Below are positions 5,783 to 23,635 of a stretch of DNA of 64,000 bases, piece after piece. A program made the translations under genes and the position numbers. The notes under the pieces were generated by a model. That model did not search any database and was not told where the DNA came from. It saw nothing but the letters and a program-made list of their open reading frames with translations. Origin of the DNA: Sinohyriopsis cumingii (lineage: Eukaryota > Mollusca > Bivalvia > Unionida > Unionidae); contig CM068830.1 in the NCBI GenBank assembly GCA_028554795.2, positions 115,066,714 through 115,130,713 on the forward strand, in the 5' to 3' direction. How positions within the stretch are numbered: position 1 is the first letter of the stretch; every line of letters begins with the position of its first letter.

Positions 5783-6295
5783 AGTAGTGAAAGGGGTGAG
5801 ATTAGCGTCAATGGGAATTAGCATTACAAACACCCCCTGGGCGAGATTAGCGTCAATGGAAATTTAACATTAACCACCCTGGGCGAGATTAGCGTCAATG
5901 GAAATTTAACATGGGCAAAAAACCCTGGGTAAGATTAGCGTCAATGGAATTTAACATTGGAGAAAGGAAAAAAAAGGAAATATTGAGATTAGCGTCAAAG
6001 GCATTCGAACAATGGAAAAATAAAAAATATTGATTCTAGGGACAAAGGCAATTGAACATGGGGAATAGAGTTTAGGTCTGTCTAGGGACAAGGGGAATTG
6101 AACATGGGAATAAAGTGTGGGTTTGTCTAGGGACAAAGGGGAATTGAACATGTTAGAAAAAAAAAACTACTTTAGGGACAAGGGGAATTGAACATGGGAT
6201 TTATTTTTTTTAAAAAAAATTTTTATAAAGGGGTAGGCAATTGAAAAGTCATTCTCTTTTCAAGAAATATGGCTGGCCCTGAAAAGGGCCTTTGG
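5783..6295. repeat. Left TIR of Polinton-1 with nine iterated units
   Basis: Inverted copy of 23636-24143. It holds nine spaced units of about 30 bp. The outer five share the core GATTAGCGTCAA followed by an AATTTAACAT-like tail; the inner four have TAGGGACAA plus AATTGAACATG. An A/T-rich stretch and GGGGTAGGCAATTG follow, and the inner edge is a histone-type 3'-end signal read on the minus strand. Iterated TIR units may serve as sites for integrase or replication proteins; that role is inferred. Confidence 0.95.
6251..6290 (-). terminator. Histone-type RNA 3'-end signal, basic-protein gene, Polinton-1
   Basis: On the minus strand: stem-loop GGCCCTTTTCAGGGCC (6290-6275), the flank AGCCA, then GAAAAGAGAAT at 6262-6251 as a histone downstream element (HDE). 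The stem begins 24 nt after the stop codon of the gene at 6315-6545. It lies inside the left TIR, so outward transcripts would end before the iterated units. Confidence 0.75.
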
Positions 6296-6314
6296 GTTTA
6301 TGTTAATATTAATA

Positions 6315-6545
6315 TTAACATAGACGGCATCTGTCACATCTTCTTCTTCTTAAACTCCTTCTAACTGCAGGTCCATACACAAGTACCCTCTTGAGGCATC
6401 CTTGTCTTTCTATGTAAACTCTGCTCATCCATAGACTAGTATCTGTCTTATCAACAACAGTCCACTTGGACCGGACATACATGAGCATGTCCGTCCTAAA
6501 CATCATGGAAGACACAAGGGTGGATGATTCAACTGTGGTCCACAT
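6315..6545 (-). CDS. Small basic protein, 76 aa, C-terminal Arg/Cys tail
   Basis: Unrecognised family. The protein has a mixed N-terminal half, then a strongly basic tail with RSLRRRRC and closing Cys residues (CDRC, RLC), suggesting nucleic-acid or metal binding. It is real for three reasons: a near-identical 77-aa frame exists in Polinton-2 (41335-41568), a minus-strand TATA box (6590-6598) lies 45 bp upstream of the ATG, and a histone-type 3' signal begins 24 nt after the stop. It is transcribed outward to the left end, divergently from the coiled-coil gene at 6765. Small basic virion proteins occur in adenovirus-like particles, but I see no specific match. Confidence 0.65.
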   Translation of the reverse strand: MWTTVESSTLVSSMMFRTDMLMYVRSKWTVVDKTDTSLWMSRVYIERQGCLKRVLVYGPAVRRSLRRRRCDRCRLC

Positions 6546-6589
6546 CGTGAGGCGACGAGAACAGGTGAATCAAAGCAGTGAACTGCGCT

Positions 6590-6717
6590 TATTTATAGGT
6601 AGAGGAAGGATTGAAACGGATTGAGCTCATTCACCAATCCGAACACGCGTTACAAAATTCAGTCAGTCCGCATCCAATCCGAAGAGAGCAGTCTGTGACG
6701 TCATGTGGTCTATATAG
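6590..6717. promoter_or_regulatory. Divergent promoter: two TATA boxes, CCAAT pair, CRE
   Basis: A minus-strand TATAAATA (6590-6598) serves the basic-protein gene and a plus-strand TATATAG (6711-6717) the gene at 6765. Between them are CCAAT at 6633 and 6673, each within CCAATCCGAA, and the palindrome TGACGTCA (6696-6703), a CREB/ATF-type site. All are conserved in Polinton-2. CCAAT plus TATA is also usual for metazoan histone promoters. Confidence 0.7.
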
Positions 6718-6764
6718 ATTCGCTAGCGCCTGTGTGCTGTGAATCTATGCGACAGTGATTCAAC

Positions 6765-7319
6765 ATGACGGAAACTCAGAAAACGATCCATTGGGGTGCA
6801 CCAGCAGTGGAGACCGCCCAAGGGAACCCGGACTTACTTTCAGAAGAGGTACATTGGGATTTTGTGGATTTTCTTACCTCGCAAGAATTTGTTCCGGAAC
6901 CTTCGTCTCATTCTTCATTACCGCAAGTGGAGAATTTTAGACAGAGACAGAAAGAAGAATTGGAGAAATTTATGCAACGACAAAAGGAAGCGGAACGAGC
7001 TTTTCTCCTACAGCAACAGCAACAGCAACAAGAAGAGGTAAGAAAAAAACAACAAGAAGAAGTAGCAGCAAAGAAACTAGAGGGTGAAAATCAAACGGCT
7101 ACGGTACTGTTGGACATTTTAGCGGAGTTAAGAAATCTGAAACAAATGTATCAGACTTCTTTATCACGACCGAAGAGAATACGACCTTCCCGAGCTAAAC
7201 ACGCCAACCCTGTGACTAAGCCTATCGTACCACCCTTAGTGATTTCAACCCAATCATCATCATCAGAAGTAGGCCTCGGCCGTGGCAAAGGCTTAAGGCA
7301 GTTAAAGTTGATTGCTTAG
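6765..7319 (+). CDS. Gln-rich coiled-coil protein, 184 aa
   Basis: Unrecognised. The N-terminal ~50 residues are acidic (EEVHWDFVDFL). A charged helix follows, with a poly-Gln run near residues 85-95 and a KKQQEEV repeat, which should form a coiled coil. The C-terminal ~60 residues are basic with a Ser stretch and the end motif GLGRGKGLRQLKL. The ATG is 48 bp after a TATA box. A histone-type 3' signal starts 22 nt after the stop. The Polinton-2 copy (41788-42348) is 186 aa and differs mainly in Gln repeat number. A regulatory or early role is possible but unproven. Confidence 0.7.
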   Translation: MTETQKTIHWGAPAVETAQGNPDLLSEEVHWDFVDFLTSQEFVPEPSSHSSLPQVENFRQRQKEELEKFMQRQKEAERAFLLQQQQQQQEEVRKKQQEEVAAKKLEGENQTATVLLDILAELRNLKQMYQTSLSRPKRIRPSRAKHANPVTKPIVPPLVISTQSSSSEVGLGRGKGLRQLKLIA

Positions 7320-7341
7320 GCTCACCCCTACACCAAAAAAA

Positions 7342-7380
7342 GGCCCTTTTCAGGGCCACCCACTTCTCTCAAAAAGAGAT
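7342..7380 (+). terminator. Histone-type RNA 3'-end signal, Gln-rich gene
   Basis: Stem-loop GGCCCTTTTCAGGGCC (7342-7357), immediately ACCCA, then AAAAAGAGAT (7371-7380) at the spacing of a U7-binding downstream element. This is the closest of the ten sites to the metazoan histone consensus. No AATAAA lies nearby. Confidence 0.8.
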
Positions 7381-7610
7381 AGCCTTTCAATTTGCCAATA
7401 ACTCAAAAATCAACAACAAAAAAAAACCATTTTACCCTTATAGTACATGTCTGTGTATGAGTGCATGAGTGTAGCTTCTTATTTTAAAATCAAAACTCAA
7501 AGACACTTACCTTATATAATTAATTGATTCTTTTCTCCATAGTTACAATCCAATTCGCAATTCACAACAGAACACTTTATAAATTACATTCACTTCTTCT
7601 GTTTCTTTTT

Positions 7611-8060
7611 TTACTCTCTCTTTTTTTTCAATTTCTTCACCGTCACAGTCTTTTCCTCCTCTTCCTCCTCACTTTCTTCCCTTCTTCTTTTCTTCTCCTG
7701 TTTCTTTTTCTTCACCTGGCTGCTTTCTTCCTCTGAAGAATCTCTCTCTTCTTCTGAAGAATCCCTCTTTTCTTCCGACTCCTCTTGTTTCTTTTTTGGG
7801 CAATCTGGAGACCAATGTCCTTTTTCTTTACAATAATAACACGTATCTTGACTTTTGTCTTTTCTAGCCCCGGTTTTTGTTCTTTTTTGACGATCTGGAC
7901 ACTCTGAAGACCAATGCCCTTTCTTCTGACAGATATAGCAAGTATCTTGACTTTTATCTCGAAAGGAAGGAGAGTAGTCCGTCGGCTGGTCTGAAGAGAA
8001 TTTTCTAATCACCCCTCGCAAAGCTCTGATGAAACGTTCCATCTGGGTAGTCTCTTCCAT
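7611..8060 (-). CDS. Double CCHC zinc-knuckle protein, 149 aa
   Basis: Two Gag-like knuckles, CYICQKKGHWSSEC and CYYCKEKGHWSPDC, are linked by a basic segment and followed by a Glu/Ser/Lys-rich tail with DSSEEE repeats. Such knuckles bind single-stranded nucleic acid. I chose the ATG at 8060 because the minus-strand TATA (8114-8125) is too close to an upstream in-frame ATG at 8108. It is transcribed divergently from PolB, so it may act in replication or genome packaging. The Polinton-2 copy has a stop inside the second knuckle. Confidence 0.75.
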   Translation of the reverse strand: MEETTQMERFIRALRGVIRKFSSDQPTDYSPSFRDKSQDTCYICQKKGHWSSECPDRQKRTKTGARKDKSQDTCYYCKEKGHWSPDCPKKKQEESEEKRDSSEEERDSSEEESSQVKKKKQEKKRRREESEEEEEEKTVTVKKLKKKRE

Positions 8061-8113
8061 CGTTGTGCTCGGTTTGAGAGTGAAATCAATAGTGAAAGGA
8101 CAAGACACACACC

Positions 8114-8148
8114 CTTTTTATATACGCTGGTTTGTCATGACTATAAAT
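8114..8148. promoter_or_regulatory. Divergent TATA pair between zinc-knuckle gene and PolB
   Basis: Minus-strand GTATATAAAAA (8125-8115) and plus-strand TATAAAT (8142-8148) lie back to back, about 50 bp from each start codon. The arrangement is identical in Polinton-2 at 43164-43197. Confidence 0.7.
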
Positions 8149-8195
8149 TAGTCTATGGTGTTTAAACTTGAGTCATTTGACGTTTTGCACTCAAG

Positions 8196-11100
8196 ATGAA
8201 ACGATCCTATTCATTCGAGAAGAAAGAAGAAGAAGAAAGTAAGAGGCAGAAACGTGATCTATTGCCTGGTACCAGAGCTGAAGTCTTGGCACAAATTCAT
8301 GCCAGTGATTTTGAAGAGGACATGAGTGAACCAGAATCCAAACCCTCTAAACAAAGTTCACCACCCTTAGTTAACCCTGAAAAGTACTATTCCATTCGAG
8401 AGACGGAAAAGCGCTCCTCTAGAAAATTTAGAACCACGGCTTACACCTACACGGTGAAGTTTAAAGATTTCAAGGCCGACGTACCATTGGAGAAAGCAGA
8501 AGGGTTTATCACCGAGATGTGGGATTCTTTGCTCACCGCACTCAAGCGACAATGTCAACCCAAAGAAGACGATCGCTTGACACTATCCATAGATCACGAC
8601 AGCTTGAAATCCCCTGTTTGGGTCGAGTTTAGCAGACCCGCAGAACTAACCCCTTCCAAAGTCATGGACAAGATTCAACACGTACAACAATCTAATGACC
8701 AGTTTGACATCACCGATGGTAAAGCCACACTGAAAATGGCCCACGGCTCTCCTCCTCAAGGGACCGGACAACGCAATAAGGTGTTATTCGTGAACGACCT
8801 TCGCAGCACCAAAAAGAGTCTCGTCCAAATTAACAACCCTCAAGACCAGATGTGCTTAGCCCGAGCCATCGTGGTGGGACGAACCTATGCCAACAAGAAC
8901 GACACGGCATAATGGAAAAGAACCTGGAAAACTATTCAACAATCGGACCGAGCCAAACAACGAAACGAAGCAGAACTCCTGTTGAAACAAGCTGGCCTGT
9001 CCAAAGACACACCCTGTGGCATTCCTGAAATGCAAAAATTGCAAGATGTCCTAGCTCCACGCTACACCTTGAAAGTGCACCCTCAAGAAGTGCGTGGGCG
9101 TGTTGTTTCGAGGGAAAGACTTTAAGGACGGAAAATACATTCATGTCTATTATCACGATGACCATTTCGATACCATTACCACTATCACTGGATTCCTGGG
9201 ATACAGTTATTACTGTGAGAAATGTGACTATGGCTATAACAATCGAGAGCAACACAAACATTGCGCATGGAAATGCCCAGGATGTTTGGCCTCTCCACCC
9301 TGTCTGAGCGAAGGACAAGAAAGAGTACATTGTCCTGCTTGTCTGCGCACGTTTGTCAGCCCTGCCTGTTACCAGCAACATCTGAAGACGCAAGGTTCAC
9401 AGAAGAAATGTGCTTGTCAACTGCTGAGATTGTGCCCTACGTGTCGACAAGGCCTACGTACCAATAATGCCAAGGCACACGTATGTTCAGGAAAGAAAAA
9501 ATGTCACATTTGTCACCACATTGTGGACTTGAAACACGAATGCTACGTGCAAAAATACCAACCCCCACCAGAGAAAGAGGACGGTCACAAGAAGAAAGGC
9601 AATTTCATCTTTTTTTGATTTCGAATGCATGCAAGAGACTGGCATTCACATTCCTAATTTCTGCGTGGCTCATCGAGCATGCGAGAAGCGCATTCAAGAA
9701 CCTATCTTCAGTCATTGCCCTCACTGCAGCAAGATTCCTGGAGGGCGTGAAAAAATCTTTCGAGGACCGAACACGTTAGCCGATTTTGCCCAATGGGTCT
9801 TAGATCCCATCGACAAGACGTGGAGCCAAGAGGACATCGAACGTTACGGAGATTGTTATTGTCATGCCACAGTGATGGCTCACAATTTCTCCGGATACGA
9901 TGGACAGTTTCTTCTCAGATACTATACGGAACAAGGCACCGAGCGTCCTAAAGTCACTTTGAACGAAGCCAAAATCATTTTCATGCAAGTGGGACAAGTG
10001 CAGTTTAAAGATTCGATGAGCTATTTGGCCATGCCTTTGAGTCGAATGCCTAAAACGTTTGGAATGACAGAAATGGCTAAAGGGTACTTTCCACACTTTT
10101 TCAATACCGAAGCCAATCAACACGCCGTTCTACCCCATTTGCCTGAGACTCACTATTACGACCCCGACAACATGCGTACCGAACAACGAGAAGCTTTCTA
10201 CGCTTGGTACCAGACTCACGCCTCTGACCCTTTCGACTTTCAGGAAGAAATGCTAAAGTATTGTCGTTCCGACGTGGACATTTTACGGCGTTGCTGTGGA
10301 AAATTTCGAGAACTGTTCATGGAACACGGAGGGGTCGATCCTTTGAAAGAAGCTTGCACCATTGCCAAAGCGTGTTCCTTAGTGTATCGACAACGATTCA
10401 TGCCTGAAAACACCGTGGCTGTCATCAGTCCTCAAACGACCCACTATGTCAAACGTCAATACTCGGTCAAAGCCCTACGTTGGTTACATTACTTGTGCGA
10501 CAAGGAAGACAAATGGATTCAGCATGCCCGCAACGGAGGAGGCGAAAAGACCATCGGAACGTATTCGGTCGATGGCTGGGACTTAGAAAACCCCAAGATC
10601 GTGTACGAGTTTAACGGTTGCTTATTTCATGGATGTCCCGTCTGTTACCCTGATCGTAGCACTAAAAATCAGTTTTTACAACGAACCATGGAAGACTTGT
10701 ACCAGGACACTTGTCAGCGCCGCCTAAAGTTGGAACAGGAAGGATACCAAGTGGTGGAAATGTGGAAACACGAGTACGATCACCGTATGAAAACCGATCC
10801 CGAGTTTAAACGTGCCGTGGAAAGTTACAAGCTGATGGACCCCCTAAACCCGAGGGATAGTTTGTACGGAGGAAGGACCAATTCCACCTGTTTGCTGTAC
10901 CAAGCCGACGAAGAGAAAGGAGAAGAAATCAAATACTTGGATGTGTGTTCGTTGTATCCTTACGTGTGCAAATATTGTCCCTTTCCTGCAGGGCACCCAC
11001 AATTGTTCACGGAACACATCGACCTAAAAAACATTCGACAATATGAAGGCTTGATCAAGTGTAAAGTTTTGCCTCCCACGAACCTATACCATCCCGTCTT

Positions 11101-12269
11101 ACCTCACCATTGTCAAGGCAAACTGATGTTTCCATTGTGCCGTGCCTGTGCCGAAATGTGCAACCAAGACCAACCTTGTCAGCACACCCAGGAAGAACGT
11201 GCCTTGACGGGAACCTGGGTCAGCGTAGAATTGTTCAAAGCTCTGGACATGGGATACCAACTGTTAGAAGTGTACGAAATTTGCCACTTTCCCAAGACAC
11301 AACAATACCATAAGGGTGACCCCAGTCAGAAAGGCGTTTTCGCCGATTACGTGGATGCCTTTCTGAAACTGAAGCAAGAAGCCAGCGGCTATCCTTCCTG
11401 GTGTCACACTTCCAAAGACGAAAAGACATTCAAAGAGAAATACTATGAACAAGAAGGCATCTCTTTAGACCACATCGAGAAAAACGAAGGAAGGCGGTCG
11501 TTTGCCAAAGTGATGTTAAATTGCTTGTGGGGTAAAATGGCACAACGACCGTGTTTACCCAAGACGGAATATTTGACAGAACCTTCCCGCTACTTTCAGA
11601 TGATTCACGACAAAAACAAAATACATGAAACACATGGACGTCGTTCGCGAGGATTTGATCTTGGTCAATTACGAAGAAGATCTGGACTTTGTACAAGACG
11701 AACCTTTTGGAAATGTCATCATTGCGGCTTACGTGACAGCTCATGCTCGCTTAAAATTGTACGAAGCTTTAGAACTGTTAGGGGAACGTGTCCTGTACTT
11801 TGACATGGACAGTTGCATTTACATCCATCACCCGAGTCAACAGCACCCTGACATCGAAGGAGACCGTTTAGGAGCCTGGACAGACGAACATCCCGACGAC
11901 AAGATTCTAAGTTTCATCAGTGGCGGTCCCAAAAATTATGGCTACGAATACCGGGACCCACAAGGAGAATTGCATACGACGTGTAAAGTGAAAGGATTGA
12001 CTCTGAATTATCGTACCAGTCGTGTGGTGAACTTTGGGGTATTGAAAGAAGCCTTGCAATCGGGAGAGGATGCAAACTTTAAAGTGGCCACCTATCAACC
12101 AAACAAAATTGTACGTTTACCCACTCACCACATCGTCAGTCGACCTTTGGAAAAAGTCTATCAAATCGTGTACCAGAAGCGAGTGCGACTTCCCAATCAT
12201 TTCACCTTACCGTATGGACACGTCGGTATTGGTCTGTATATAAAAAGGAACCCTAGGCAAGATCGATAG
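8196..12269 (+). pseudogene. polB: Protein-primed family B DNA polymerase, broken copy
   Basis: Homologous along its length to the nearly intact gene at 43245-47306. Lesions: a nonsense TAA at 8910-8912, a frameshift near 9090-9110, an extra T in a T-run near 9612, and an insertion in an A-rich stretch near 11620. Exonuclease motifs (DFE, HNFSGYD, YCRSDVD) and DVCSLYP remain readable between breaks. The catalytic motif C reads DMDS near 11803 instead of DTDS, a substitution in the metal-binding block. It cannot make a full enzyme. Confidence 0.95.
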
Positions 12270-12301
12270 TTCATTGTGACTACCAAGACCGAGCGAACAA
12301 G

Positions 12302-12614
12302 ATGAATACTTTCAGAGAGACACAAAACAAGTTTAGACAGGGACAATTCAAGTGTAGGGCTTCTGAAGTGGAATGCGATTGTGAGCCTTGCGACTTTTCA
12401 ACCTGTGTTAGTGACGGTGCCAGAAGAACCCGTCACCCAGGACGGGACTGTCGTGGACAGGCCTGAAAGACCCTTTCGGGAGGACACTTGTGTGACCTTA
12501 CCCCCTACTATAGAACTGGTTAGAACATTACCCAAAACATGTTGTACAGACACTTGTGTTTATTCCACGTTAATGGTTATCATGTGCCTTTTATCCTTAT
12601 ACTTAAGCCTTTGA
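12302..12614 (+). pseudogene. Small membrane-anchored protein gene, frame uncertain
   Basis: Between PolB and the ATPase a conserved stretch encodes a Pro/Glu/Thr-rich segment (VTVPEEPV..D) then Cys residues and a C-terminal hydrophobic helix (about 16 residues, STLMVIMCLLSLYLSL), as in tail-anchored proteins. The first ATG (12302) is in another frame, so either a frameshift lies near 12390 or the true start is unseen. The Polinton-2 copy has a 1-nt deletion before the helix. Function unknown. Confidence 0.4.
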
Positions 12615-12657
12615 CTTTTATGTATTTTTGTCTTTCGTATTCATGTTTGAAACATTC

Positions 12658-12687
12658 AATAAACGTGTTCTGAAAAAAAGTATATAA
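12658..12687 (+). promoter_or_regulatory. AATAAA signal followed by ATPase TATA box
   Basis: AATAAA (12658-12663) would end transcripts of the PolB side; TATATAA (12681-12687) starts 54 bp before the ATPase ATG. Both are conserved in Polinton-2 (47725-47730 and 47746-47752). The signals are only 17 bp apart, a virus-like compactness. Confidence 0.7.
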
Positions 12688-12734
12688 ACTCTTGTCTTGT
12701 CTGTTTTCGTGTCACAAGTGACATTCCTGACACT

Positions 12735-13478
12735 ATGGCTACCTCTGCTGTCTCTGCTCCCTCTTACTCCACTGTCAAAGTCATCGACGAACACTTAGAT
12801 CGTGCCAGTTGGGAGGCTTTGTATCTTCGCCATCCCTTTAACATGCTTATTGCTGGACCTAGCGGTTCAGGCAAAACCGAATTCGTCAAACGTTTGATCG
12901 AGCATAAACATCATTTGATCGATCGACCATATCAGCGGATCGTGTGGTGTTACAAAGAGTGGCAATCGGCGTACAGCCTCTTGCGAGAAAGTCAAGGCGA
13001 TTCCATCGTGTTTGTGGAAGGCATTCCTAAAGAAGACGACGGCATCGTCTCTGACTCCCGTCAAACCCATTTGGTCATTTTTGACGACATGTTAGGAGAA
13101 GACGAAGAAGAAATTAAACTGTGGTTCACGCGCAAAGGGCATCACCGTAATGCCAGTGTCGTTTACATCACCCAAAATTTGTTTCAACAAAGTAAAGCCC
13201 ATCGCACCATCACTCTCAATGCGCATTACGTGGTCTTGTTTAAAAGCCCTCGAGATAAATCGCAAGTGCAAGCCTTAGCCAAACAGTTAGGAACGCCTTG
13301 ACTGACTCAGGCGTACGACGATGCCCTTCAAACTCCACACGCCTATTTACTCGTCGATTTGAAACCTACGACCCCCGAGGATTTGCGATTTCGTACCCAC
13401 TTGTTTCACCACTGGTGCCAAGACGGAGGGCCTGTCCTGTACACGTCTCCGTCCTCGACTTCATTTCACTCCACATAA
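12735..13478 (+). pseudogene. FtsK/HerA-type packaging ATPase, one nonsense codon
   Basis: Same 247-codon length as the intact copy at 47801-48544. Walker A (GPSGSGKT) and Walker B (HLVIFDD) are present, but TGG has become TGA at 13299-13301. This removes the C-terminal ~60 residues. The truncated product keeps both nucleotide-binding motifs but would lack the end of the ATPase fold. Confidence 0.92.
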
Positions 13479-13533
13479 AAAAATATATAAAAACCTCAGA
13501 CCCTTTTTCGTCTGTCTCACTCACAGTGCGAAC

Positions 13534-14457
13534 ATGACGTCCCTTCAGTCGCATCTTCCCGTCAAATTGATTCGTGCCTTGTATGGCATCAGTCGAGAAA
13601 AAAATCCACAAATACGAGATCGTGTTTTAGAAGCTAGTCTCAAAGAAGTCTTACGATGGTTCACGGTGACGGCACGTCAAATACTCCAAGGAATCATTCA
13701 GATTCCTCATCAAACAAAACGCTTTTTCGATCGAAACAAAGTCGCTTTGGTCCAACTGGCCAATCCCCGCATCGACACTCAAACCAAAAAACAAATCATT
13801 TTGAAACCTGGAGGGAGTGGTACTCTAGGAGGGGTCATCATTCGCTCACTCTTAAGATGGGATCCTAATGCCCCCAAAGTTATCCCCAAGAAGAAAGTCC
13901 AACGAAGCCCCAAGAAGAAAAAGAAAAAGACCAGGTCCCCAAGAAGAACTTCTCCAGTGGCGGGACCCTCCTCTTACCAGACACCACCTCGGGAAAAGAA
14001 AAGAAGCCCCTAGAAAAAGAAAAGTCCACAGAAGAAAACTAGTCGCAAGAGAGGCAGTTCGGCCAGGACGCAACCTTACACTCGCAAACCACGACCTGTC
14101 ACGGCGGTGACCACATCTCCGACAGCCTCACGTTCATCCACTTCTCCGTTGATGACACCAAGAACTGAAGAGTACATGGAGACGTTGATCACACCAAGAA
14201 CTTCTCCGTTGATGACCCCAAAAAGAACTTCCCCAGTGGCAGGATCCTCCAATTTAGTGGCAGTGGCTGCTGCTCACAAAGTACCTTCTCCTAAAATCAA
14301 AGTCCATGAAAGATCGGGTATGTTACAAAGTTTACTGGATTTGTCCAAGCAAGAACTGGCTCGATTTAGTCCGTTGCGTACCCCTTCACGACGTGTCATG
14401 CCTGTCCTCAAACTGATACGCCGTAAAGACAATCAGTGGCGACGCGTTCCAGTATAA
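13534..14457 (+). pseudogene. Basic core-like protein, one nonsense codon
   Basis: Counterpart of the intact gene at 48599-49513. The conserved ~115-residue N-terminus is open, then CAG has become TAG at 14011-14013 within the Lys/Arg/Ser/Pro-rich part. A TATATAA at 13484-13490 lies 44 bp upstream of the ATG. The frame stays open beyond the stop to 14457, where the stop codon overlaps the next TATA box. Confidence 0.85.
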
Positions 14458-14459
14458 AA
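14453..14459 (+). promoter_or_regulatory. TATA box overlapping the preceding stop codon
   Basis: TATAAAA includes the TAA stop (14455-14457) of the basic core-like gene and lies 60 bp upstream of the next ATG. The overlap is conserved at 49509-49515. Confidence 0.55.
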
Positions 14460-14518
14460 AAGACCTGTGACCAAGTCGGGGGTATCAGTGTTTTTTTGGT
14501 GCTCCTGAAGACTCAAAG

Positions 14519-14948
14519 ATGTCACCCTCCAGAAAACCCCAAGGAAAGAAAAGAAAAGGACTACCACCACGTTTAGTCAAACATGGGGACATGTTATCTG
14601 TCCTGTCCAAAGCTTCTCCACCTCTACGAAAAAAAACTCATTCAATCGGCCTCCAAAGAGGTCATCGATACTGTGTGCGAATGTTGTTTGAACGTTTTGA
14701 AAGGCACGATCCCTTTGTCCAAACACCAGAAACAATGCTTAAGCAAACATCGTCACGTTCTTCGCCAAATGGTTTGAAAGAAAATTCCCATTCGTCAAAA
14801 GAAGAAGATGTTAGTCCAACATGGAGGCATTTTGCCTCTCTTGTTAGGCCCCATACTGAAAGGAGTCTTGGGAACCATGTTGGGAGGACTGGTGGGAGCA
14901 AGATAAAAAGGCCCTCGGAAGTCCCAAGACCTCAGAATCGACCCCTGA
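14519..14948 (+). pseudogene. Basic/hydrophobic virion-like protein, frameshifted
   Basis: Counterpart of the intact 142-aa gene at 49573-50001. An extra A in an A-run near 14635 shifts the frame, and CGA has become TGA near 14776. The Cys pair (CECC), the Lys/Arg-rich middle and the Gly/Leu-rich end are recognisable across frames. Confidence 0.8.
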
Positions 14949-14955
14949 CAACCCC

Positions 14956-15588
14956 ATGGATGGACGAAAACTAGCTTTAGTGCCTTACAAACGATGGATG
15001 GAATACCATCGGTGGCAAGAACAACGCACCCCGCATTTACCTCCCAATCCCCATTTGAGCGAGATGTCCCAGTTACAACAGGAATTGCAGTCCTTAATGG
15101 ATAGCCAAGATTTGTCCAAAACAGAAAAATCGCAAAAGTACGGTCAACTCTTGCAACGACTGCAACTCTTTCACCAGAAAGCTTTAGACGAAACAGCTCT
15201 ACCCACTCTGAAAGATTTTAAGACCTTGATGAAAAGTCCAGCACCATCACCAGTACCAGTACCAGTACCACCAGTACCCGTGACCAAGACAGAAAAAGGA
15301 GAAGAAGAAGGGTTTCAAACTCCACCAGAAAAATTACGCAAGTTAACAACACCACCTACCTCCAGAATTGGATGGATTAAAAAGATGATGGCCACCCTTT
15401 CTTCATCACAAGAGAAAAAGAAAGTGAAGACAGAAGTGAAGACAGAAGTGAAACAAGAACCGATATGCCCCGCTCAGACATCCTCCTCTTCAACACCTAT
15501 TGCCGGTCGCACACGCAAAGCATTGCAATCCAAGAAAGTACCCCAAGAGAAAAAGAGTAGCATCCTCCAAGAGTGGGTGTCTTATTAA
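14956..15588 (+). CDS. Pro/Lys-rich linker protein, 210 aa, intact
   Basis: Unrecognised function. The N-terminus (LALVPYKRWMEYHR) and a Gln/Leu-rich helix to about residue 85 are followed by a Pro-Val repeat (PSPVPVPVPPVPV), a TPP motif segment and two copies of KTEVKTEVK. It ends SILQEWVSY. The position between the virion-like gene and integrase is constant in both elements, and a protein beginning with a similar LVPY motif is common in Polintons. The Polinton-2 copy lacks the Pro-Val segment and is frameshifted, so this is the better copy. Confidence 0.7.
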   Translation: MDGRKLALVPYKRWMEYHRWQEQRTPHLPPNPHLSEMSQLQQELQSLMDSQDLSKTEKSQKYGQLLQRLQLFHQKALDETALPTLKDFKTLMKSPAPSPVPVPVPPVPVTKTEKGEEEGFQTPPEKLRKLTTPPTSRIGWIKKMMATLSSSQEKKKVKTEVKTEVKQEPICPAQTSSSSTPIAGRTRKALQSKKVPQEKKSSILQEWVSY

Positions 15589-15605
15589 CACACAAACACA
15601 AAAAA

Positions 15606-16714
15606 ATGGAAAAAGTCTTAGCCAGCATTTACTACGATCCCTCTCATCCTGCAGGTTACGCAGGAGTTCAAAAATTGTATCGTGCTGCCAAAACGCGACT
15701 GAAAAGTCTCCGTTTACCTCAAGTGCAACGATGGTTACAAGAACAAACTACCTACACTTTACACAAACCCATTCGACGCAAGTTTGCCAGAAGTCGCACC
15801 CAAGTGGAAGACATCGATCATCAATGGCAAGCCGATTTAGCCGATGTCTCTCATTTGGCCAGCTACAATTGTGGCTACAAATATTTGTTTTGTGTCATCG
15901 ATGTCTTTTCCAAATTTGCCTGGGTCGTGCCCTTGACTTCCAAATCAAGCAGCGAGTTAGTGCAAGGCCTGTAACGGGTGTTGAAACAAAGCGGTCGTCA
16001 CCCTTTTCGATGGCAAACGGACAAAGGCACCGAATTTCTGAACCAAGCTTTCCAAAAAGAATTAAAGAAACGTGACATTCATTTTTTTACCACTGAGAAT
16101 CCAGAAACCAAAGCCAGCATCGTGGAACGTTTTCAACGCACTTTGAAAGAACGCATGTGGAAATATTTTACGCATCACCACACTCTCAAGTACATCGACA
16201 TCTTACCGCACCTGGTGCAAGCGTACAACCAATCTTACCATCGAAGCATCGGACGTGCCCGCAAGACGTGACTCCCGACAACGAAGTGCTGGTGTTTGAG
16301 CGTCTGTTTGGTACGTCCCGGACGAGGGCTGTCCCCAAGAAAAGTGGAATGTTGGCCGTAGGAGATTGGGTGCGCATTGGCAAAACCAAACGCACTTTCG
16401 ACAAAGGTTACTTACCTAACTGGACGACCGAATTGTTTCGCGTCACTGGACGAGTGCATGGTCGTCATCCTGCCGTCTAAAAATTGGAAGACATGAATGG
16501 AGAAGTGCTCAAAGAAACGTTTTACTTGCCCGAGTTAAAACGTGTCACCAAAAAAGAAGACGACGTGTACGACATCGAAAGCATTCTCGAACGCAGAACC
16601 CGTAAAGTGGGCAAACAACGTGTCAAAGAAGTGAAAATACGTTGGAAAGGATATCCACCCAGTTTTGATTCTTGGATCGACGCTTCGCAAGTCATCGACT
16701 ATAAAAAGAAGTGA
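15606..16714 (+). pseudogene. int: Retrovirus-like integrase with chromodomain, broken
   Basis: Homologous to 50593-51702. Lesions: CAA to TAA at 15972-15974, a 1-nt deletion near 16259, and TAT to TAA at 16478-16480. The D,D,E residues (WQADLAD, TDKGTEF, SIVERF) are all encoded but split among frames. The chromodomain end (RWKGYPPSFDSWI) is intact here, whereas the Trp codon of this motif is a stop in Polinton-2. Confidence 0.93.
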
Positions 16715-16719
16715 CCATC

Positions 16720-17139
16720 ATGCCCTTTCACACAGACGCAGCTACGTCAGCCACTCCTCCTTCACCTAGTTCTTCTGTGCAAGATTTACAAAAACAACCC
16801 TTGTGGGTGTGGTGTGGAGAACGTGTGCCTAAAATGCAAATCGTCTTTTTCTGCCAAATCTTCGTGGTGCATTGTGTCATCGGGGCAGCCATTGCCAATT
16901 TGAGTTTGCAACAAGGAGACAAACAATTGTGGACCATTTTATTGAGCAGTTGCATCGGTTACCTGCTTCCCAATCCCTCCCTGAAATTCTCCTCGAACGG
17001 GAACCACGGGAACCTTGTGTCCAGTGCCAGTGCCAGTCACCACTCCATCAACAATCACAACCAGAACCCCATTTTGGGCGGAGACATGCCTCTGACGTCC
17101 AGTAACCCCTCGGACAGCCACAGAACTCTGGAATCATGA
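16720..17139 (+). CDS. Two-helix membrane protein, 139 aa
   Basis: A Ser/Pro-rich N-terminus leads to a predicted transmembrane helix (about residues 40-62) and a second hydrophobic stretch (LWTILLSSCIGYLLP, about 70-86). A Ser/Asn-rich tail follows. A membrane protein with an LW..LLSS..GYLLP motif beside the penton gene is a recurrent Polinton component; its role is unknown. The ATG is 5 bp after the integrase stop, and its TGA overlaps the penton ATG in ATGA. Intact in both elements. Confidence 0.8.
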   Translation: MPFHTDAATSATPPSPSSSVQDLQKQPLWVWCGERVPKMQIVFFCQIFVVHCVIGAAIANLSLQQGDKQLWTILLSSCIGYLLPNPSLKFSSNGNHGNLVSSASASHHSINNHNQNPILGGDMPLTSSNPSDSHRTLES

Positions 17140-18068
17140 GTCACGAAAGCCAATTTTACTTAACCTTACCCAGTGACAGTTCCATGGAGGTGTTTCCCCA
17201 CAACACGTTGTGCTGTTACACGGCTAAATTACCTCAAGCCATCCAGTTAGATCACGAAGCCCATTGGGAAGTGGCTTTAGTAGAAATGATTCACCCGACC
17301 CAAGTCCTCAATGTCCTTCCCAATCAAAACTTTTTTGATGTGGAAGTTTATGGGGAGCAAATGCAACAGTACTTGGATACCCATGGCAAATATGACAAGA
17401 AAACCCCTAGCACAAGAAATCAAAAGTACACCACCTATCACTTGTTCATTCACCCAGGCTATTATTTTAGTGGTCAACATTTGGTGAGCACCATTACCTC
17501 CAGGTTTAATGTCGTGTTTCTGAAAGCTTTGGAAAGTGTCAAAAAAAGTGTCACCATGGAATACCACAAAACAGCTCGTCGCTTCTTGATGAAATTTGAC
17601 GGGAGTAAAATCCTGTCCATTTTATTTTGTTCTGAATTGTTTGACATGTTGGGCGGAGACATGGACATGAGAATGGCCATGATCAAGAAAAACGAATTAC
17701 CCATCGTTTACGACAACGAGTCTTTTAGCAAGTTATTTCGTGCCCCGGTAGAAATGAATCAAGGACTGAATTTAATGTTTGTGTACTCCGATGTGGTGGA
17801 GTACAACGTGGTGGGACACACCTCTGTACTGTTAATGCGTGTCATTCCTTTCAAAGTGGATTCTGCCATGAACGCTGACGAGGAAGGTGGAAACACTTAC
17901 CACGTTCACCGCGAATTTGTCCATCCTCACTATTTGCCTGTCAGCAAGTCGTATTTGGACACAGTCAACATTGCTATAAAAGGAGATTTGGGACAAAATA
18001 GTCCATTCACCAAAGGAAAAGTCACAGTGAAACTCCATTTTCGAAAACGGTTCTCTCACGACTCGTAA
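17136..18068 (+). CDS. Minor capsid protein, penton-like single jelly roll, 310 aa
   Basis: The N-terminus FYLTLPSDSSMEVFP..L.CYTAKLP..I.L and WEVALVEMIHP are the hallmark of the Polinton minor capsid (penton base) protein, which would occupy particle vertices. The length is normal and the frame is open in this copy. It starts within the ATGA overlap with the membrane-protein gene and ends 3 bp before the pX-like ATG. The 3' part contains a TATAAAA (17975-17981) that may drive the next gene. The Polinton-2 copy has a late nonsense codon. Confidence 0.88.
   Translation: MSHESQFYLTLPSDSSMEVFPHNTLCCYTAKLPQAIQLDHEAHWEVALVEMIHPTQVLNVLPNQNFFDVEVYGEQMQQYLDTHGKYDKKTPSTRNQKYTTYHLFIHPGYYFSGQHLVSTITSRFNVVFLKALESVKKSVTMEYHKTARRFLMKFDGSKILSILFCSELFDMLGGDMDMRMAMIKKNELPIVYDNESFSKLFRAPVEMNQGLNLMFVYSDVVEYNVVGHTSVLLMRVIPFKVDSAMNADEEGGNTYHVHREFVHPHYLPVSKSYLDTVNIAIKGDLGQNSPFTKGKVTVKLHFRKRFSHDS
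17975..17981 (+). promoter_or_regulatory. TATA box inside the penton gene
   Basis: TATAAAA lies 97 bp upstream of the pX-like ATG, within penton coding sequence, and is conserved in Polinton-2. It is a candidate late promoter. Confidence 0.45.
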
Positions 18069-18071
18069 GTC

Positions 18072-18488
18072 ATGTATCCAGTGTACCGAGGGGTTGCTCG
18101 ACAGCGAGGACACGGTTTAGGAGATATGTTAAAATCGGCCTTTCGTTCGGTGGCCCCAGTGTTGAAACCGATGGTGACACGCGGATTGCACGCCTTGAAA
18201 GATGCCGCACTGACGCAAGGCAAAGAATTTCTCCAAAATGTCATCATCGACAAACAAAACCCTAAAGAAGCCTTCATGAGGGCAGGCAAAAATGTCTTGC
18301 TGCAAACAGGCAAAGACATTTTAGGCCGACGAGACACACCTATAAATGCCCTGCACGCTACCGAGTCAGGCATTCAGCAAGGACAAGGCAGAAAGAGACG
18401 ACGAAGAAAACACCCTTTCACCAGACTTCAAGCTAGAAAGGCCAAGAAAAGAAGAACCGTTCGAGACTTAGACGTTTTCGATTATTGA
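18072..18488 (+). CDS. Basic pX/mu-like virion protein, 138 aa
   Basis: The N-terminus (YRGVARQRGHGLGDMLKSAFRS) is a short Gly/Arg segment leading into an amphipathic helix. A central HALKDAALTQGKEF..NVIID region follows, and a very basic tail (GRKRRRRK, KAKKRRTVRD). A basic protein with a YRG..RGHGLG start beside the capsid genes is typical of Polintons and recalls adenovirus core or pVI-type proteins; DNA condensation is plausible. Intact in both elements. Confidence 0.75.
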   Translation: MYPVYRGVARQRGHGLGDMLKSAFRSVAPVLKPMVTRGLHALKDAALTQGKEFLQNVIIDKQNPKEAFMRAGKNVLLQTGKDILGRRDTPINALHATESGIQQGQGRKRRRRKHPFTRLQARKAKKRRTVRDLDVFDY

Positions 18489-18512
18489 GAAAGAACAATA
18501 AAACAGAAAAAA

Positions 18513-19825
18513 ATGATGCACCGAGAGTCTTGCGCTTGTTCCAAGTCGGAACTGGATCTGTTTGCCATGCCCCCCACCATGATGACCATGCAAGAATCCC
18601 AGTGGGTGGAATTTCACCCCGTCTCCTCTCTGACAGCCTCAGCTCCCATCGAGTTTGAAATCAAAGGACAGCCCGAAGATTACATCGATCTGAATAGCAG
18701 TTACTTGTACAAGAAAGTCAAAGTTGTCGATGAGGATAATACGCTCCTAGATGGTGATGATGGTAATAGTTCCCGTCAACAATTTCATGCGTTCCTTGTT
18801 CAGTGGAGTGGACTTGTACTTGAATAACAAACTAGTCAGTAGTAGCATGGATACTTACCCTGATCGTGCCTACCTGGAAAATCTCTTGACGTACGGAATA
18901 GATGCCAAGAACACTCATCTCAGTGCCTGTGTGGTATGGGAAGCTGACGATGCAGGCCAGTTTGAAGAATTCGAAAATTGATACAAAGAAAGAACACAAT
19001 GCGGGATTTGTAGAACGAAGAGACAGAATCATGGGAGCCAACAAAAGTTTAGAACTGATGGATCGTTTGCATTTGGACATGTGGTTGCAAGAAAAGTATT
19101 TGCTGAACGGAGTGAATCTCCGCCTGAGACTGAATCGTAGTAGTGCCGTTTTCCATTTGATAGGTACTAGTGCTTGCAAAACTGTCATCGAGGAAGCCAG
19201 GCTCTACGTACGACACGTGGAAGTGTTACCTAAAGTGGGTAACGACATCAGTCAGACGTTGAGCAGGACGACCGCCAGGTATCCCATACGACGCGTGGAA
19301 GTGAAAACCTTCACCATTCCTACGGGGCTGTGATCCATGATCGAAGATCATCTGTTCCAAGGACAGTAACCCAAACGTTTGATCCTTGGTATCGTCGAGA
19401 ATGCAGCCTTCAACGGAGCTTTGGCTAAAAATCCTTTCCACTTTCAACACTTTGACGTGTCCAAGATCGAAGTCAGTCGCGATGGCAGGACCTTGTGTAC
19501 CCGACCTTTCGAACCTAACTTTGACAAGAAGAATTACTTGAGGTCGTACTTGTCCCTGTACGAAGCCACTGGTCAGTTAGGAACCAACACCAGTCACGGC
19601 ATTACGTACGAGGATTACGCAGGAGGCTACGCTTTGTGGGCTTTCGATTTCACTCCAGACCAAGGCAGCGACGAGGGACATTTCCACCCTATAAAATCTG
19701 GCCAGATTCATGTGGAAATTCAGTTTACTACAAATCTAACAGAGACGGTGAACGTCATCCTGTATGCAGAATTCGATAATACCATAGAAATCAACAGTTT
19801 GAGAGAAGTCATTCTAGATTACTAG
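18513..19825 (+). pseudogene. Major capsid protein, double jelly-roll type, broken
   Basis: The start region (SQWVEFHPVSSLT, PIEFEIKGQPEDYIDL) and FSGVDLYLNNKLVSS identify the Polinton major capsid protein, a double jelly-roll trimer forming the capsid faces. Frameshifts near 18770 and 18975 and stops at 19331-19333 and 19366-19368 destroy it. The ATG at 18513 adds a Cys-containing leader (MMHRESCACSK) absent in frame from Polinton-2. The C-terminus (TVNVILYAEFDN.IEI) is preserved. Confidence 0.9.
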
Positions 19826-19830
19826 AAGCC

Positions 19831-20316
19831 ATGGAATTCTGTTCTCCCTCTTTACCTAGTGGAGAAACTTTGGAGATGGAATGTGAGGAGACCATGGAGA
19901 AAGAAGAAGTGATCATGATGAAGTCAAGATGGCCAGAACAAGAAGCCCATTTAGTCTGCTGTTTTGCCAAACACTTGGCTGAAAAAATAACGGAATTGAT
20001 CAAGAAAAATTGCTATGGATGTCAAAACGATCATCCCAGTCAAATTCAACACGATAAATGCCTGATGTTGAGTCAAGAAGAAAAATTGGACAAGTATCTG
20101 GACGAGGCTTGGAGTCTCATCTCGGACGAAGTCGTGTTGCACCAGTGGTATAAAGACTTGCGTGAACATTCTTGTCCACCATTAACCACTCAAGAGATCC
20201 ATCGTATCGAAGCTCTCCTGAATCAGAGTGAGGAGACGAAACGAAGAAACGGTTACTTGTCAGACATTTTCAAGCAAAAAGTCAGGATTGAATTGACAAC
20301 GTATTATTACCTGTGA
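19831..20316 (+). CDS. Conserved Cys/His protein, 161 aa, intact
   Basis: The core CYGCQNDHPSQIQHDKCLM (about residues 61-80) has the spacing of a small metal-binding site. A protein with this Cys/His/Pro motif next to the major capsid gene recurs in Polintons; its function is not known to me. The rest is helical and acidic, ending VRIELTTYYYL. The ATG is 5 bp after the major capsid stop. A TATAAAA at about 19692 lies in the capsid gene upstream. In Polinton-2 all but the first codons are deleted. Confidence 0.75.
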   Translation: MEFCSPSLPSGETLEMECEETMEKEEVIMMKSRWPEQEAHLVCCFAKHLAEKITELIKKNCYGCQNDHPSQIQHDKCLMLSQEEKLDKYLDEAWSLISDEVVLHQWYKDLREHSCPPLTTQEIHRIEALLNQSEETKRRNGYLSDIFKQKVRIELTTYYYL

Positions 20317-20340
20317 AGAAGAAAAAAAGCACACAAATCA

Positions 20341-20901
20341 TTGGATACTTGGGAACTTTATTACCTTTTGAACCACAGTTCGTATACGGCTTCTTGGAAT
20401 CCTGTCGTCTGTGCTAAAGATGAACTCCCTCATTGCAAACCTAAAAACCATCAAGTTTACGTGATCAACACGGACGACAGTCATCTCCCAGGAACCCACT
20501 GGGTAGCCGTCTACTTTCTTCAAGAAGGATGTGTGGAATATTTCGATTCGTACGGATTGCCCCCTTTCGAAGACGATATCATTGACTTTATGAGAAGAAA
20601 TGCTCAGACCACCCGATTCAATAATGTGAAATTACAAGGCACAGATTCCTTGGTGTGTGGACAGTACTGTGTGTATTTTCTGCATCATCGCAGCCTGGGC
20701 TATTCCTTAGAACATTTAGTAACTCATTTTGATCCTCGTTCTTCTTGTAGAAATGATGTGAAAGTAGATCGATGGTTTTGTGACCATTATGCTTATCTTT
20801 TGTCTCAAGCTAGGAAACGTAGTGTCCATCAATGGCCTAATGATTTCCAACAGTGGAAATCACAATTTCATTCACAACGTTGTCAGCCCTGTTTAAAGTA
20901 G
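20341..20901 (+). CDS. Adenain-type cysteine protease (C5/Ulp1 fold), start codon lost
   Basis: The catalytic residues line up with the adenovirus maturation protease: His53 (GTHW), Asp69 (EYFDSYG), Gln99 (KLQG) and Cys106 (VCGQYC). The Gln-Cys spacing of seven equals that of adenain. It should cleave virion precursor proteins. The frame opens at 20317 but has no ATG before the catalytic His; the expected position 20341 is TTG followed by the normal-looking DTWELYYLL. The start therefore seems mutated, or a non-ATG start is used. The gene is absent from Polinton-2. Confidence 0.88.
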   Translation: MDTWELYYLLNHSSYTASWNPVVCAKDELPHCKPKNHQVYVINTDDSHLPGTHWVAVYFLQEGCVEYFDSYGLPPFEDDIIDFMRRNAQTTRFNNVKLQGTDSLVCGQYCVYFLHHRSLGYSLEHLVTHFDPRSSCRNDVKVDRWFCDHYAYLLSQARKRSVHQWPNDFQQWKSQFHSQRCQPCLK

Positions 20902-21131
20902 ACTGTATTTGAAGAAAAAAATGTTTGATGTTATAATGTTGGATTATTGTTTAAAATATGTTAGAGTTGTTGTTGTTTAGTGTTAAGTGATTTTTGAATT
21001 AAAAATGTTGTGTTTTGAAAAAAAAATGCCTTTGTGGTTTGTTTAGCTATAAGAATGTTGGATTGATGCTCTTTCATTTCTTACTATCCCTCTCATGACA
21101 CTCACTGAACGCTGCGACTCGAAAACCGTGT
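20902..21131 (+). other. AT-rich spacer with decayed polyadenylation signal
   Basis: No gene. AATTAAAA near 20998 corresponds to AATAAA at 54910-54915 in Polinton-2, so this is the end of the capsid/protease transcription unit with its signal mutated. Confidence 0.55.
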
Positions 21132-21170
21132 GGGGATGTTTTCCTTCACGTCCGCGCTTTGACTTTAAGA
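21132..21170 (+). promoter_or_regulatory. Shared promoter box, first right-hand gene
   Basis: GGGGATGTTTTCCTTCACG followed by TCCGCGCTTT and a TATA-like TTTAAGA. The same box precedes the genes at 22111 and 23247 and all three counterparts in Polinton-2. It is not found before the core genes. Confidence 0.7.
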
Positions 21171-21222
21171 ACCGGGTTGTTTCCAGTCTAACCATCCATT
21201 GTCGACTCATCCTCCTACGAAG

Positions 21223-21585
21223 ATGTGCTCCAAACTAGCTAAACTCAACGAAGCCTACGTGAATTTGCATAGGGTCAGACATGGTCTGATACCGAAGCCA
21301 GAAGAGATAGAGAATGTGAGAATGTTAAAAGTCACTGAAGACCTGATAGATGAGCTCTTCAGAGAAGAAGTGAACAGGGAAAAAGAAGAATGGACAGAGA
21401 AGTACAGACTTCAGAGACATCAGCAACAGCAACAACAACAACAACAACAGCAGCAGGAACCTGAACCTGAGAGAGGCTTTGTCGATTGTCGTATCGACAC
21501 CAAAGAGTTCTTCTTCTCTTTCCGAAGAAGCAGACCTATTGCCAGAAAGTCTGTCCTCAGAGGACATCGCATTCTTAGAAATTAA
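21223..21585 (+). CDS. Small poly-Gln coiled-coil protein, 120 aa
   Basis: Unrecognised. The helical N-terminus (KLAKLNEAYVNLHR, then EDLIDELFREEVNREKEEW) precedes a CAA/CAG-encoded poly-Gln run. The C-terminus is basic (RRSRPIARKSVLRGHRILRN). The start is the first ATG (21223) after the shared promoter box. A histone-type 3' signal begins 34 nt after the stop. The Polinton-2 copy has the same ends and a longer Gln run. It is one of three small helical genes under the same box, perhaps early or regulatory. Confidence 0.7.
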   Translation: MCSKLAKLNEAYVNLHRVRHGLIPKPEEIENVRMLKVTEDLIDELFREEVNREKEEWTEKYRLQRHQQQQQQQQQQQQEPEPERGFVDCRIDTKEFFFSFRRSRPIARKSVLRGHRILRN

Positions 21586-21619
21586 AAGATTGCCATAGCC
21601 AACAAAAAAAACAAAAAAC

Positions 21620-21659
21620 AGCCCTTTTCAGGGCTACCCAATACTCTAGAAAAGAAATA
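21620..21659 (+). terminator. Histone-type RNA 3'-end signal, poly-Gln gene
   Basis: Stem-loop AGCCCTTTTCAGGGCT (21620-21635), then ACCCA and AGAAAAGAAAT (21649-21659). The first pair is A-U, but the G-C second pair and UUUC loop of the histone consensus are kept. Confidence 0.75.
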
Positions 21660-21984
21660 ACAATCCATTTGCCAATGTGTGTAGGTAGTGTGAATATAAA
21701 CACTAACTCTTTTTTCATAGTGTGAGGGTATGTGTTTGTGTATAAGAATGTGTATTTGTAAGTGCTCACGTACGTTGGTGTGGATAGTAGATTAAGATGA
21801 TATTTGTTTTTTTGGCTGTTGGAGGTGTGGGGAGAGTAGATTTGGGGGTTTGATTTTATTGCTTTGCGTATGTGAATAGTATATTGGAGTGATTAATGAA
21901 ATAATTTTTTAGAATAGTGATGAGCAGTATAAAAAAGTGAATGAGTGTTTCTTTTAGGTCCGCGCATTGTTTTGTTTTTTTTGG

Positions 21985-22059
21985 TCACGATCTAGGTAAG
22001 ATCAATGTTATGTTTTTCAGGGGGATGTTTTCCTTCACGTCTTTCAGTTTTAGTATAAA
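21985..22059 (+). promoter_or_regulatory. Shared promoter box with upstream GATCTAGGTAAGATC element
   Basis: GATCTAGGTAAGATC (about 21989-22003) precedes GGGGATGTTTTCCTTCACG (22021) and TATAAAT (22053). A partial second box (AGGTCCGCGC, 21956-21965) lies upstream, showing a duplicated promoter unit. Confidence 0.65.
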
Positions 22060-22110
22060 TTGAAACTCGTTCGGCAGTCCAGCTACCCTTGTTGATTGAT
22101 CAACACCAGA

Positions 22111-22480
22111 ATGAACACGAGACTGGCGAAACTGATGGAACTTCATGTGCATCTGGAATATGCCAGGCACCTGTTGAACGAACTGGCCGCGGAGGCCATT
22201 GTTGAAGAATGAAGGATGAGAGAGGAGGAGGAAAGAAGAAATAAAGAAGAGGAGGAGAGAAGATACAAAGAAGAGGAGGAAAGAAGATACAAAGAAGAGG
22301 AGAGAAGATACAAAGAAGAGGAGGAGAGAAGATACAAAGAAGAGGAGGAGGAATAGGAGAAAAGAAGAAGAAATTTCAGAATCCCAGAAACCGAAAAATG
22401 GGATTCTGAAGCCACATATCCTGCCTCTGTTCTCTCCCCCAAAAAAGTAAAAAGCAACTGGGGAACAAGATGTGTATGTG
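22111..22480 (+). pseudogene. Glu/Arg-rich coiled-coil gene, truncated by nonsense
   Basis: Counterpart of the intact 128-aa gene at 56018-56404. The open frame stops after 33 residues at a TGA (22210-22212), just before the ERRYKEE repeats. A further stop lies near 22355. The downstream repeat and the C-terminal ESENWDSEA-like segment remain recognisable. Promoter box and 3' signal are intact. Confidence 0.75.
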
Positions 22481-22542
22481 GCGCCAGGCCTGGAAGGTGC
22501 CACCATTAACCAGGTGTCCATGAAGTTCCAAAAAAAAAAAAC

Positions 22543-22581
22543 AGCCCTTTTCAGGGCTACCCAATACTCTAGAAAAGAAAT
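22543..22581 (+). terminator. Histone-type RNA 3'-end signal, Glu/Arg-rich gene
   Basis: AGCCCTTTTCAGGGCT (22543-22558), ACCCA, then AGAAAAGAAAT from 22571. Identical in layout to the signal at 21620. Confidence 0.75.
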
Positions 22582-22729
22582 AACCATCCATTTGCCAATG
22601 TGTGTGTGTGTGTGTGTGTGTAGGTAGAGTAGTGTGAATATAAACACTAACTCTTTTTTCATAGTGCGAGTGTATGTGTTTGTGTGTTTGTGTTTGTAAC
22701 TGCTCACGTAAGTTTGTGTGAATGGTAGA

Positions 22730-23060: not shown

Positions 23061-23098
23061 ACTTATGTGGATAGTATATTACATGAAATGAGAAAAGT

Positions 23099-23206: not shown

Positions 23207-23246
23207 AACCCACAGTATTCATCGTTCAAACCATTCTACAGAGAAG

Positions 23247-23573: not shown

Positions 23574-23635
23574 GTGAGAAAATAAGAAGTTGGTGGAGAA
23601 AAAGAAGAAATTAGAAGCAGAAGAAGAAGAAGAAA

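Follow-up and report, generated by a model that had tools for sequence, protein, structure and literature searches.

Histone-type 3' ends are regarded as a mark of metazoan histone genes. In the window, the whole 64-kb stretch of DNA analysed here, an initial annotation had proposed signals of this type at ten sites behind small genes of two mobile elements, which raises the question of whether genes other than histone genes can end in this way, and from where such an element would have obtained the necessary parts.

Two Polintons and the sites behind their outer genes

Element A (5783..24143) and element B (40886..57947) are Polintons. Each runs from TIR to TIR inside a 6-bp target duplication (GATATA in A, AACCTT in B), and Pfam matches to PolB, an A32/FtsK-type ATPase and an rve integrase were found in both, a combination shared with Polinton/Maverick elements and adintoviruses. 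The PolB frame is interrupted in A, and in B it forms a 1221-aa ORF, although the match to a relative continues beyond its stop. A tblastn search with the capsid-like ORF of L025, a distant relative treated below, gave matches in both elements, whereas the protease-like ORF of L025 was matched in A only; the capsid and protease labels of these two ORFs are putative and follow gene order rather than a family search. A and B are copies of one family, with their longest aligned stretches 86–95% identical. In PolB, the window shares 45% identity with a coral adintovirus entry, and the named PolB relatives among the matches listed (120 of 959) come from bivalves (oysters, mussels and others), from echinoderms and corals, and from a small number of other invertebrates. 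Several offset alignments between the element ends reveal internal repeats in the TIRs at 5783–6299 and 40886–41319. Repeats also lie upstream of gene 5 (22661–23030 and 56535–56934), with an 89-nt offset in A, where they hold three minus-strand AATAAA motifs at 89-nt spacing that are conserved in B.

The outer genes encode small proteins that are often rich in Q, K or E. In element A, gene 1 (6315..6545, minus strand; a basic protein of 76 aa) runs outward into the left TIR and is followed 24 nt past its stop by a stem-loop with a downstream element (6251..6290, minus strand). Gene 2 (6765..7319, plus strand; 184 aa, Q-rich) is followed after 22 nt by a stem-loop, ACCCA and AAAAAGAG (7342..7380, plus strand), and gene 3 (21223..21585, plus strand; 120 aa) after 34 nt by an AGCCCU/AGGGCU stem-loop, ACCCA and GAAAAGAAA (21620..21659, plus strand). 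The coding frame of gene 4 is broken, and its stem-loop and downstream element lie at 22543..22581 (plus strand). Gene 5 (23247..23573, plus strand; 108 aa, K/E-rich) has its site 67 nt past the stop at the inner edge of the right TIR (23641..23680, plus strand). In element B, gene 1 (41335..41568, minus strand; 77 aa) has a stem-loop and downstream element 24 nt past its stop (41272..41310, minus strand), and the remaining genes and sites are on the plus strand. Gene 2 (41788..42348; 186 aa) is followed after 27 nt by a stem-loop whose second pair is broken (A opposite C), with ACCCA and GAAAAGAAA (42376..42414). The stem-loops and downstream elements of gene 3 (55135..55506; 123 aa), gene 4 (56018..56404; 128 aa), and gene 5 (57114..57470; 118 aa) begin 39, 28, and 53 nt past the stops (55546..55584, 56433..56471, and 57524..57562), the last again at the inner edge of the right TIR. 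The stem behind every intact small outer ORF thus starts 22–67 nt past the stop and always on that gene's strand; the association with outer genes proposed earlier holds, and the distance of about 20–140 nt proposed with it is narrowed. As had also been stated, none of the sites follows a core gene, since no RF00032 site was found behind any core gene of either element.

No histone Pfam match was found in genes 2, 3, and 5 of both elements or in gene 4 of B. Captured histone genes beside the sites were considered and rejected, because the outer ORFs are not histones, either by Pfam or at any of 68 genomic loci (68/68).

The stem-loop and downstream-element sites of the outer genes are confirmed. 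All ten were located at the positions proposed for them and match the Rfam family RF00032 in e-value mode, with 30.9–39.6 bits and E-values of 3.8e-8 to 6.7e-5, and four of the ten pass the gathering (curated) score of the family; beyond these ten, the 64-kb window holds no RF00032 match at E ≤ 1. A degenerate scan that left the stem sequence free (6-bp stem with at least five Watson–Crick pairs, TTTN loop, [AG]AAAGA 12–15 nt on) returned exactly the same ten sites, whereas 60 second-order Markov windows contained 0.17 such sites on average and never more than one. A chance or compositional artefact is ruled out by the RF00032 matches together with this simulated-window control. The details of the motif were refined at the same time. 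ACCCA, described as following most stems, stands directly 3' of the stem in six of the ten sites, with AGCCA in three of the others and AAACA in one. The purine element, placed earlier at 12–15 nt downstream, lies 13 nt from the stem at all ten sites, and its core reads GAAAAGA everywhere except at 7342, where it is AAAAAGA.

With nine of the ten sites being perfect inverted repeats, 42376 being the exception, and four of the ten being located at the TIRs, the sites might be read as DNA-level hairpins or plain terminators that serve replication or end recognition, their likeness to histone signals being incidental. Such hairpins would need neither histone-type flanks nor a downstream core at the host spacing, and would not have to follow the strand of the preceding gene at a short distance from each intact stop; moreover, the sites of genes 2–4 lie outside the TIRs. 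We regard this explanation as extremely improbable.

Independence, conservation and relatives of the modules

The outermost site pairs, 6251/23641 in A and 41272/57524 in B, mark the inner edge of the TIRs and belong to genes 1 and 5. Since these sites share a TIR position and A and B are copies of each other, the sites represent about three sequence forms. The earlier count of ten sites, five per element, is therefore correct as a count, whereas treating the sites as ten independent cases was rejected.

Unlike outer genes of one element were compared without gaps, excluding the TIR pair 1/5 and the gene 3/gene 4 pair, whose modules are near-identical. Identity was 81–100% over the stem-loop, 53–87% over the next 15 nt, and 67–100% over the downstream core, but 10–48% further out, beyond 20 nt upstream and beyond 60 nt downstream of the stem start. 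Between A and B, dN/dS is 0.10 for gene 1 (dS 1.59), 0.07 for gene 5 (dS 1.62), and 0.17 for gene 3 (dS 0.12), and 0.72 for gene 2, which at dS 0.04 is too close to inform. Genes 1 and 5 nevertheless have stems that are identical between A and B in 16/16 bases, at a dS of about 1.6 that is near saturation and a rough estimate, and TIR homogenisation may contribute to this identity. Because the dS of these end genes is far above the 0.04 and 0.12 of genes 2 and 3, the elements resemble mosaics, with ends that may come from another lineage.

Pairing was counted over 16 rows, of which 15 are distinct: the ten sites of the window, one row for L025, and one for each of five host histone genes. Paired cells make up 98.9% of the total, exceeding every slid register. 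Two pairs are changed on both sides, in one case because of host H1, and 17 of 500 shuffles reach two; a measure of further pair types over the 15 distinct rows was not above its shuffles.

A search of the host genome with RF00032 gave 589472 loose candidates, of which 75 were scored and ranked by score, and 68 of the 75 were fetched. In the 900 nt upstream, the best tblastn match was a window gene at 56 of the 68 loci (gene 1 at 28, gene 2 at 17, gene 5 at 11); at the remaining 12 it was an ORF taken from loci L032, L083, and L043. We take these 12 as probable further Polinton end genes, because 10 of them also carry the promoter box described below. A histone was the best match at none of the 68 loci, with five host histones among the queries. 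The stem equals the reference at 62 loci, and six have one change at pair 4, which leaves that pair mismatched in three; the downstream element is lost at L030 and lost in part at L031. Because the loci were ranked by motif score, they are no measure of conservation. A sample of gene 3 was therefore chosen by protein alone, from 31106 candidates with at least 150 copies scored, taking 20 at even steps down the list. All six pairs and a core at 13–14 nt are present in 20/20 of these copies, which are about 98% identical in protein and therefore young. The motif is accordingly kept in related Polintons, a point on which the earlier proposal had been made to depend, and it is present in the distant L025 as well.

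Two PolB queries of the host genome recovered one kind of Polinton, with 63 scored matches at 46–47% and 98 at 44% identity to the query; no distant Polinton family was returned among the scored matches of these two queries. The scored matches lie mostly in open frames of about 1350 aa. The many copies (63 and 98 by PolB), the open PolB frames, and the high identity of the gene 3 proteins suggest that the family may have undergone a recent burst.

A profile search of contigs with a PolB alignment gave five loci, L024–L028. L025 is a Polinton fragment in a bacterial MAG, with PolB segments 26–44% identical to those of the window and 36% identical to the query. It carries a stem-loop of 35.8 bits, 28 nt past a small C2H2 zinc-finger ORF that lies beyond the integrase, and an AATAAA about 70 nt past the stem. 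No site was found in L024, L026, and L027, which are short, PolB-centred and may not extend to the outer genes, or in L028, a weak archaeal match. L024–L027 are animal-type Polinton contigs in bacterial MAG or single-cell records (Photobacterium, Bacteroidia, Poribacteria, Epulopiscium) and are probably host contamination. In IMG/VR, no relative was returned by the PolB scans or by a strict motif pattern, and the 23 matches to a loose pattern were dismissed as chance-like by eye.

Likeness to the host histone repeat at both gene ends

The histone repeat of the host is about 8.3 kb long and contains H3, H4, H2B, H2A, and H1, with a stem-loop behind each. Of the relatives of its H1 that were listed (120 of 4967), all that bear an organism name are molluscs except for one bacterial-MAG record, which makes a mollusc the most likely host. 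The histone-type layout proposed for the Polinton sites agrees with these genes in the stem-loop, the 13-nt spacing, and the GAAAAGA core. The host cores lie 13–14 nt past the stem and read GAAAAGA in four genes and GAAAAGG in H2A. The host stem-loops score 35.0–39.4 bits, and genomic Polinton sites reach 45.6. The H2B stem-loop is identical to the commonest genomic Polinton form (16/16), from which those of H3, H4, and H2A differ in the last base of the loop and that of H1 in the third pair. Further downstream, a perfect TCAATTTTGCC stands at +29 in host H2A. The host H2B version differs from it at two positions and those of Polinton genes 2–4 at none or one, and the stretch is not clear in host H3, H4, and H1 or in Polinton genes 1 and 5. 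The stretch lies at a fixed distance, beyond the expected U7 duplex. An Rfam U7 search of the host genome found no U7 among the 65 scored of 801960 candidates, and an exon-by-exon SLBP search of the host gave no match, both being run without a positive control.

One reading of the shared flank is that the Polinton modules may derive from the capture of an H2A/H2B-type 3' end. If so, the present sites could be passive fossils, in which an ancestor captured histone-gene DNA together with its 3' end and functionless copies have persisted by descent and TIR homogenisation. The extension of the likeness out to +29, the placement of the gene 1 and 5 sites in the TIRs, and the near-identity of the gene 3 and 4 modules fit such a capture. 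However, unlike outer genes keep the stem and core while their flanks are near chance identity, the end genes retain every stem base at their high dS, the module is common to several end-gene families, and the distant L025 carries it behind an unrelated gene. Passive persistence is hence very unlikely; functional 3'-processing signals account better for these observations.

The 5' side of genes 3, 4, and 5 also resembles the host histone genes. These genes share GATGTTTTCCTTCACGTCCGCGCT, a 24-bp box of histone H2B/H1 type, or a one-mismatch form of it, on the plus strand. The box lies at 21135..21158 before gene 3 of A and 55047..55070 before gene 3 of B. Before gene 4, it lies at 55931..55954 in B and at 22024..22041 in A, where only the first 18 of the 24 bases are kept and the last six have diverged. 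Gene 5 has a box with one mismatch in both elements, at 23172..23195 with a second copy from 23103 in A, and at 57028..57051 with a second copy from 56959 in B. By eye, a TATA-like stretch follows within about 15 nt after the box. In the window, the box is confined to the right ends of the elements (8 places when up to four mismatches are allowed in its first part). Of the host promoters, that of H2B agrees with the box at 23/24 positions and that of H1 at 22/24, and H2A has five mismatches in the other orientation; in 1000 Markov sequences the minimum was six mismatches. Among 23 genomic loci of gene 5 or other end genes, the box is present with at most two mismatches in the retrieved sequence of 20, and the exact H2B form was found in at least nine. 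It is absent before genes 1 and 2 in the window and in six genomic loci. A likeness between the gene 1/gene 2 intergenic region and the histone repeat was tried and set aside as not significant. Box sites common to host H2B/H1 and Polinton genes 3–5 were recorded at L127 2593, L127 5995, and window position 21135. The presence of this box before genes 3–5 adds to the idea that these genes may be expressed in S phase, and the joint likeness suggests host histone loci as a source of regulatory parts.

Proposed expression, known parallels and further observations

The interpretation of the sites as histone-type 3' ends is supported by these comparisons of sequence. The outer genes of this Polinton family very probably end in genuine histone-type 3'-processing signals, whose mRNA ends would be formed by host SLBP and U7. 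In the proposed mechanism, Pol II would transcribe the short outer genes and host SLBP would bind the stem-loop of the transcript. Thirteen nucleotides further on, the GAAAAGA element would be the pairing partner of the host U7 snRNP, with GAAAAGAGAUAG and GAAAAGAAAUAA as the candidate pairing stretches of the modules. An AAAGAG purine core is known to pair with CUCUUU of U7, and loss of this pairing strongly lowers processing, as described in the available text of PMC7026596. The RNA would then be cut just past the stem, at ACCCA, giving short mRNAs that lack poly(A), like the host histone mRNAs. Histone promoter factors would start genes 3–5 through the 24-bp box, and with both the start and the end of the transcript on the histone programme, expression would be expected to peak in S phase, while the DNA of the element is being copied. 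SLBP binding, cleavage, the lack of poly(A), and S-phase timing are what we infer from the layout of the genes. This arrangement suggests that the small end genes may borrow the host programme for making histones during DNA replication.

The position of poly(A)-type signals bears on a further possibility, that most of these mRNAs receive poly(A) further downstream, the stem-loop contributing no more than S-phase stability or translation through SLBP. Dual processing has been described for some histone genes in the available part of PMC9756948, with H2A.X among them according to that of PMC7807067, and the AATAAA past the L025 stem would fit it. However, beside genes 1–5 the gene strand carries neither an AATAAA nor an ATTAAA that is conserved between A and B. 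The single conserved plus-strand AATAAA lies past PolB (12658/47725), about 440–470 nt downstream of where the PolB match stops, and neither of the two conserved plus-strand ATTAAA motifs (13113/48179 and 15376/50355) adjoins genes 1–5. The poly(A)-like signals near the sites, at 6200 on the minus strand in A and at 42442 and 55626 in B, are not conserved between the elements. Such dual use is unlikely, and 3' ends formed as in histone mRNAs remain the preferred reading. The broader proposal, that animal Polintons use the whole host histone programme, both promoter box and SLBP/U7, to make S-phase-timed, poly(A)-free mRNAs of their outer genes, with competition for SLBP and U7 as a possible consequence, is one that we favour on balance.

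To our knowledge, no mobile element or virus has so far been known to run its genes on the whole histone programme, and we know of no histone consensus or U7 element in the hairpin-directed 3' ends of Mimivirus. Those ends are alike in that a hairpin behind viral genes sets the mRNA 3' end, but, as far as the available text of PMC4402537 describes, they depend on viral enzymes and on polyadenylation in the cytoplasm. The Polinton sites share with the histone mRNA 3' end (RF00032, SLBP, U7 snRNP) the 6-bp stem, the UUUN loop, the AC-type flank, and the purine core at the host spacing, as well as single-ORF genes with short 3' UTRs. In contrast, the outer genes are not histones and sit in a mobile, virus-like element, and one Polinton form has A-U instead of G-C as its first pair. 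A similar stem-loop and HDE occur in an S-phase-specific cnidarian histone set, according to the available text of PMC5011920.

The earlier statement that such signals were undescribed in Polintons holds for animal Polintons within the open literature, where we found no account of histone-type promoters or 3' ends, and has to be qualified for their relatives. The nearest mention is PMC12220804, which in its available text gives a bare count of six histone 3'UTR stem-loops among 8300 PLV/virophage genomes; the same Rfam family thus occurs in related elements, but these are protist elements, and the count comes there with no gene context, host comparison, promoter, or interpretation. The signal itself is of a known kind; what is new, as far as our searches show, is that non-histone genes of a mobile element use it in combination with a histone promoter box. 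The element appears to use both ends of the histone programme for non-histone genes, which would explain replication-timed expression. If this is true, the transcripts would be missed by poly(A)-selected RNA-seq and Polinton expression may be undercounted; given the gene 3 copy number scored above, the element might also draw SLBP and U7 away from histone mRNAs.

Two further ORFs were noted in the window. One, at 7611–8060 on the minus strand inside Polinton A, encodes CCHC zinc knuckles (Pfam zf-CCHC, 1.2e-13), and the other, at 1735–2211 in flanking DNA outside both elements, encodes a GDSL lipase/OSK-like domain.
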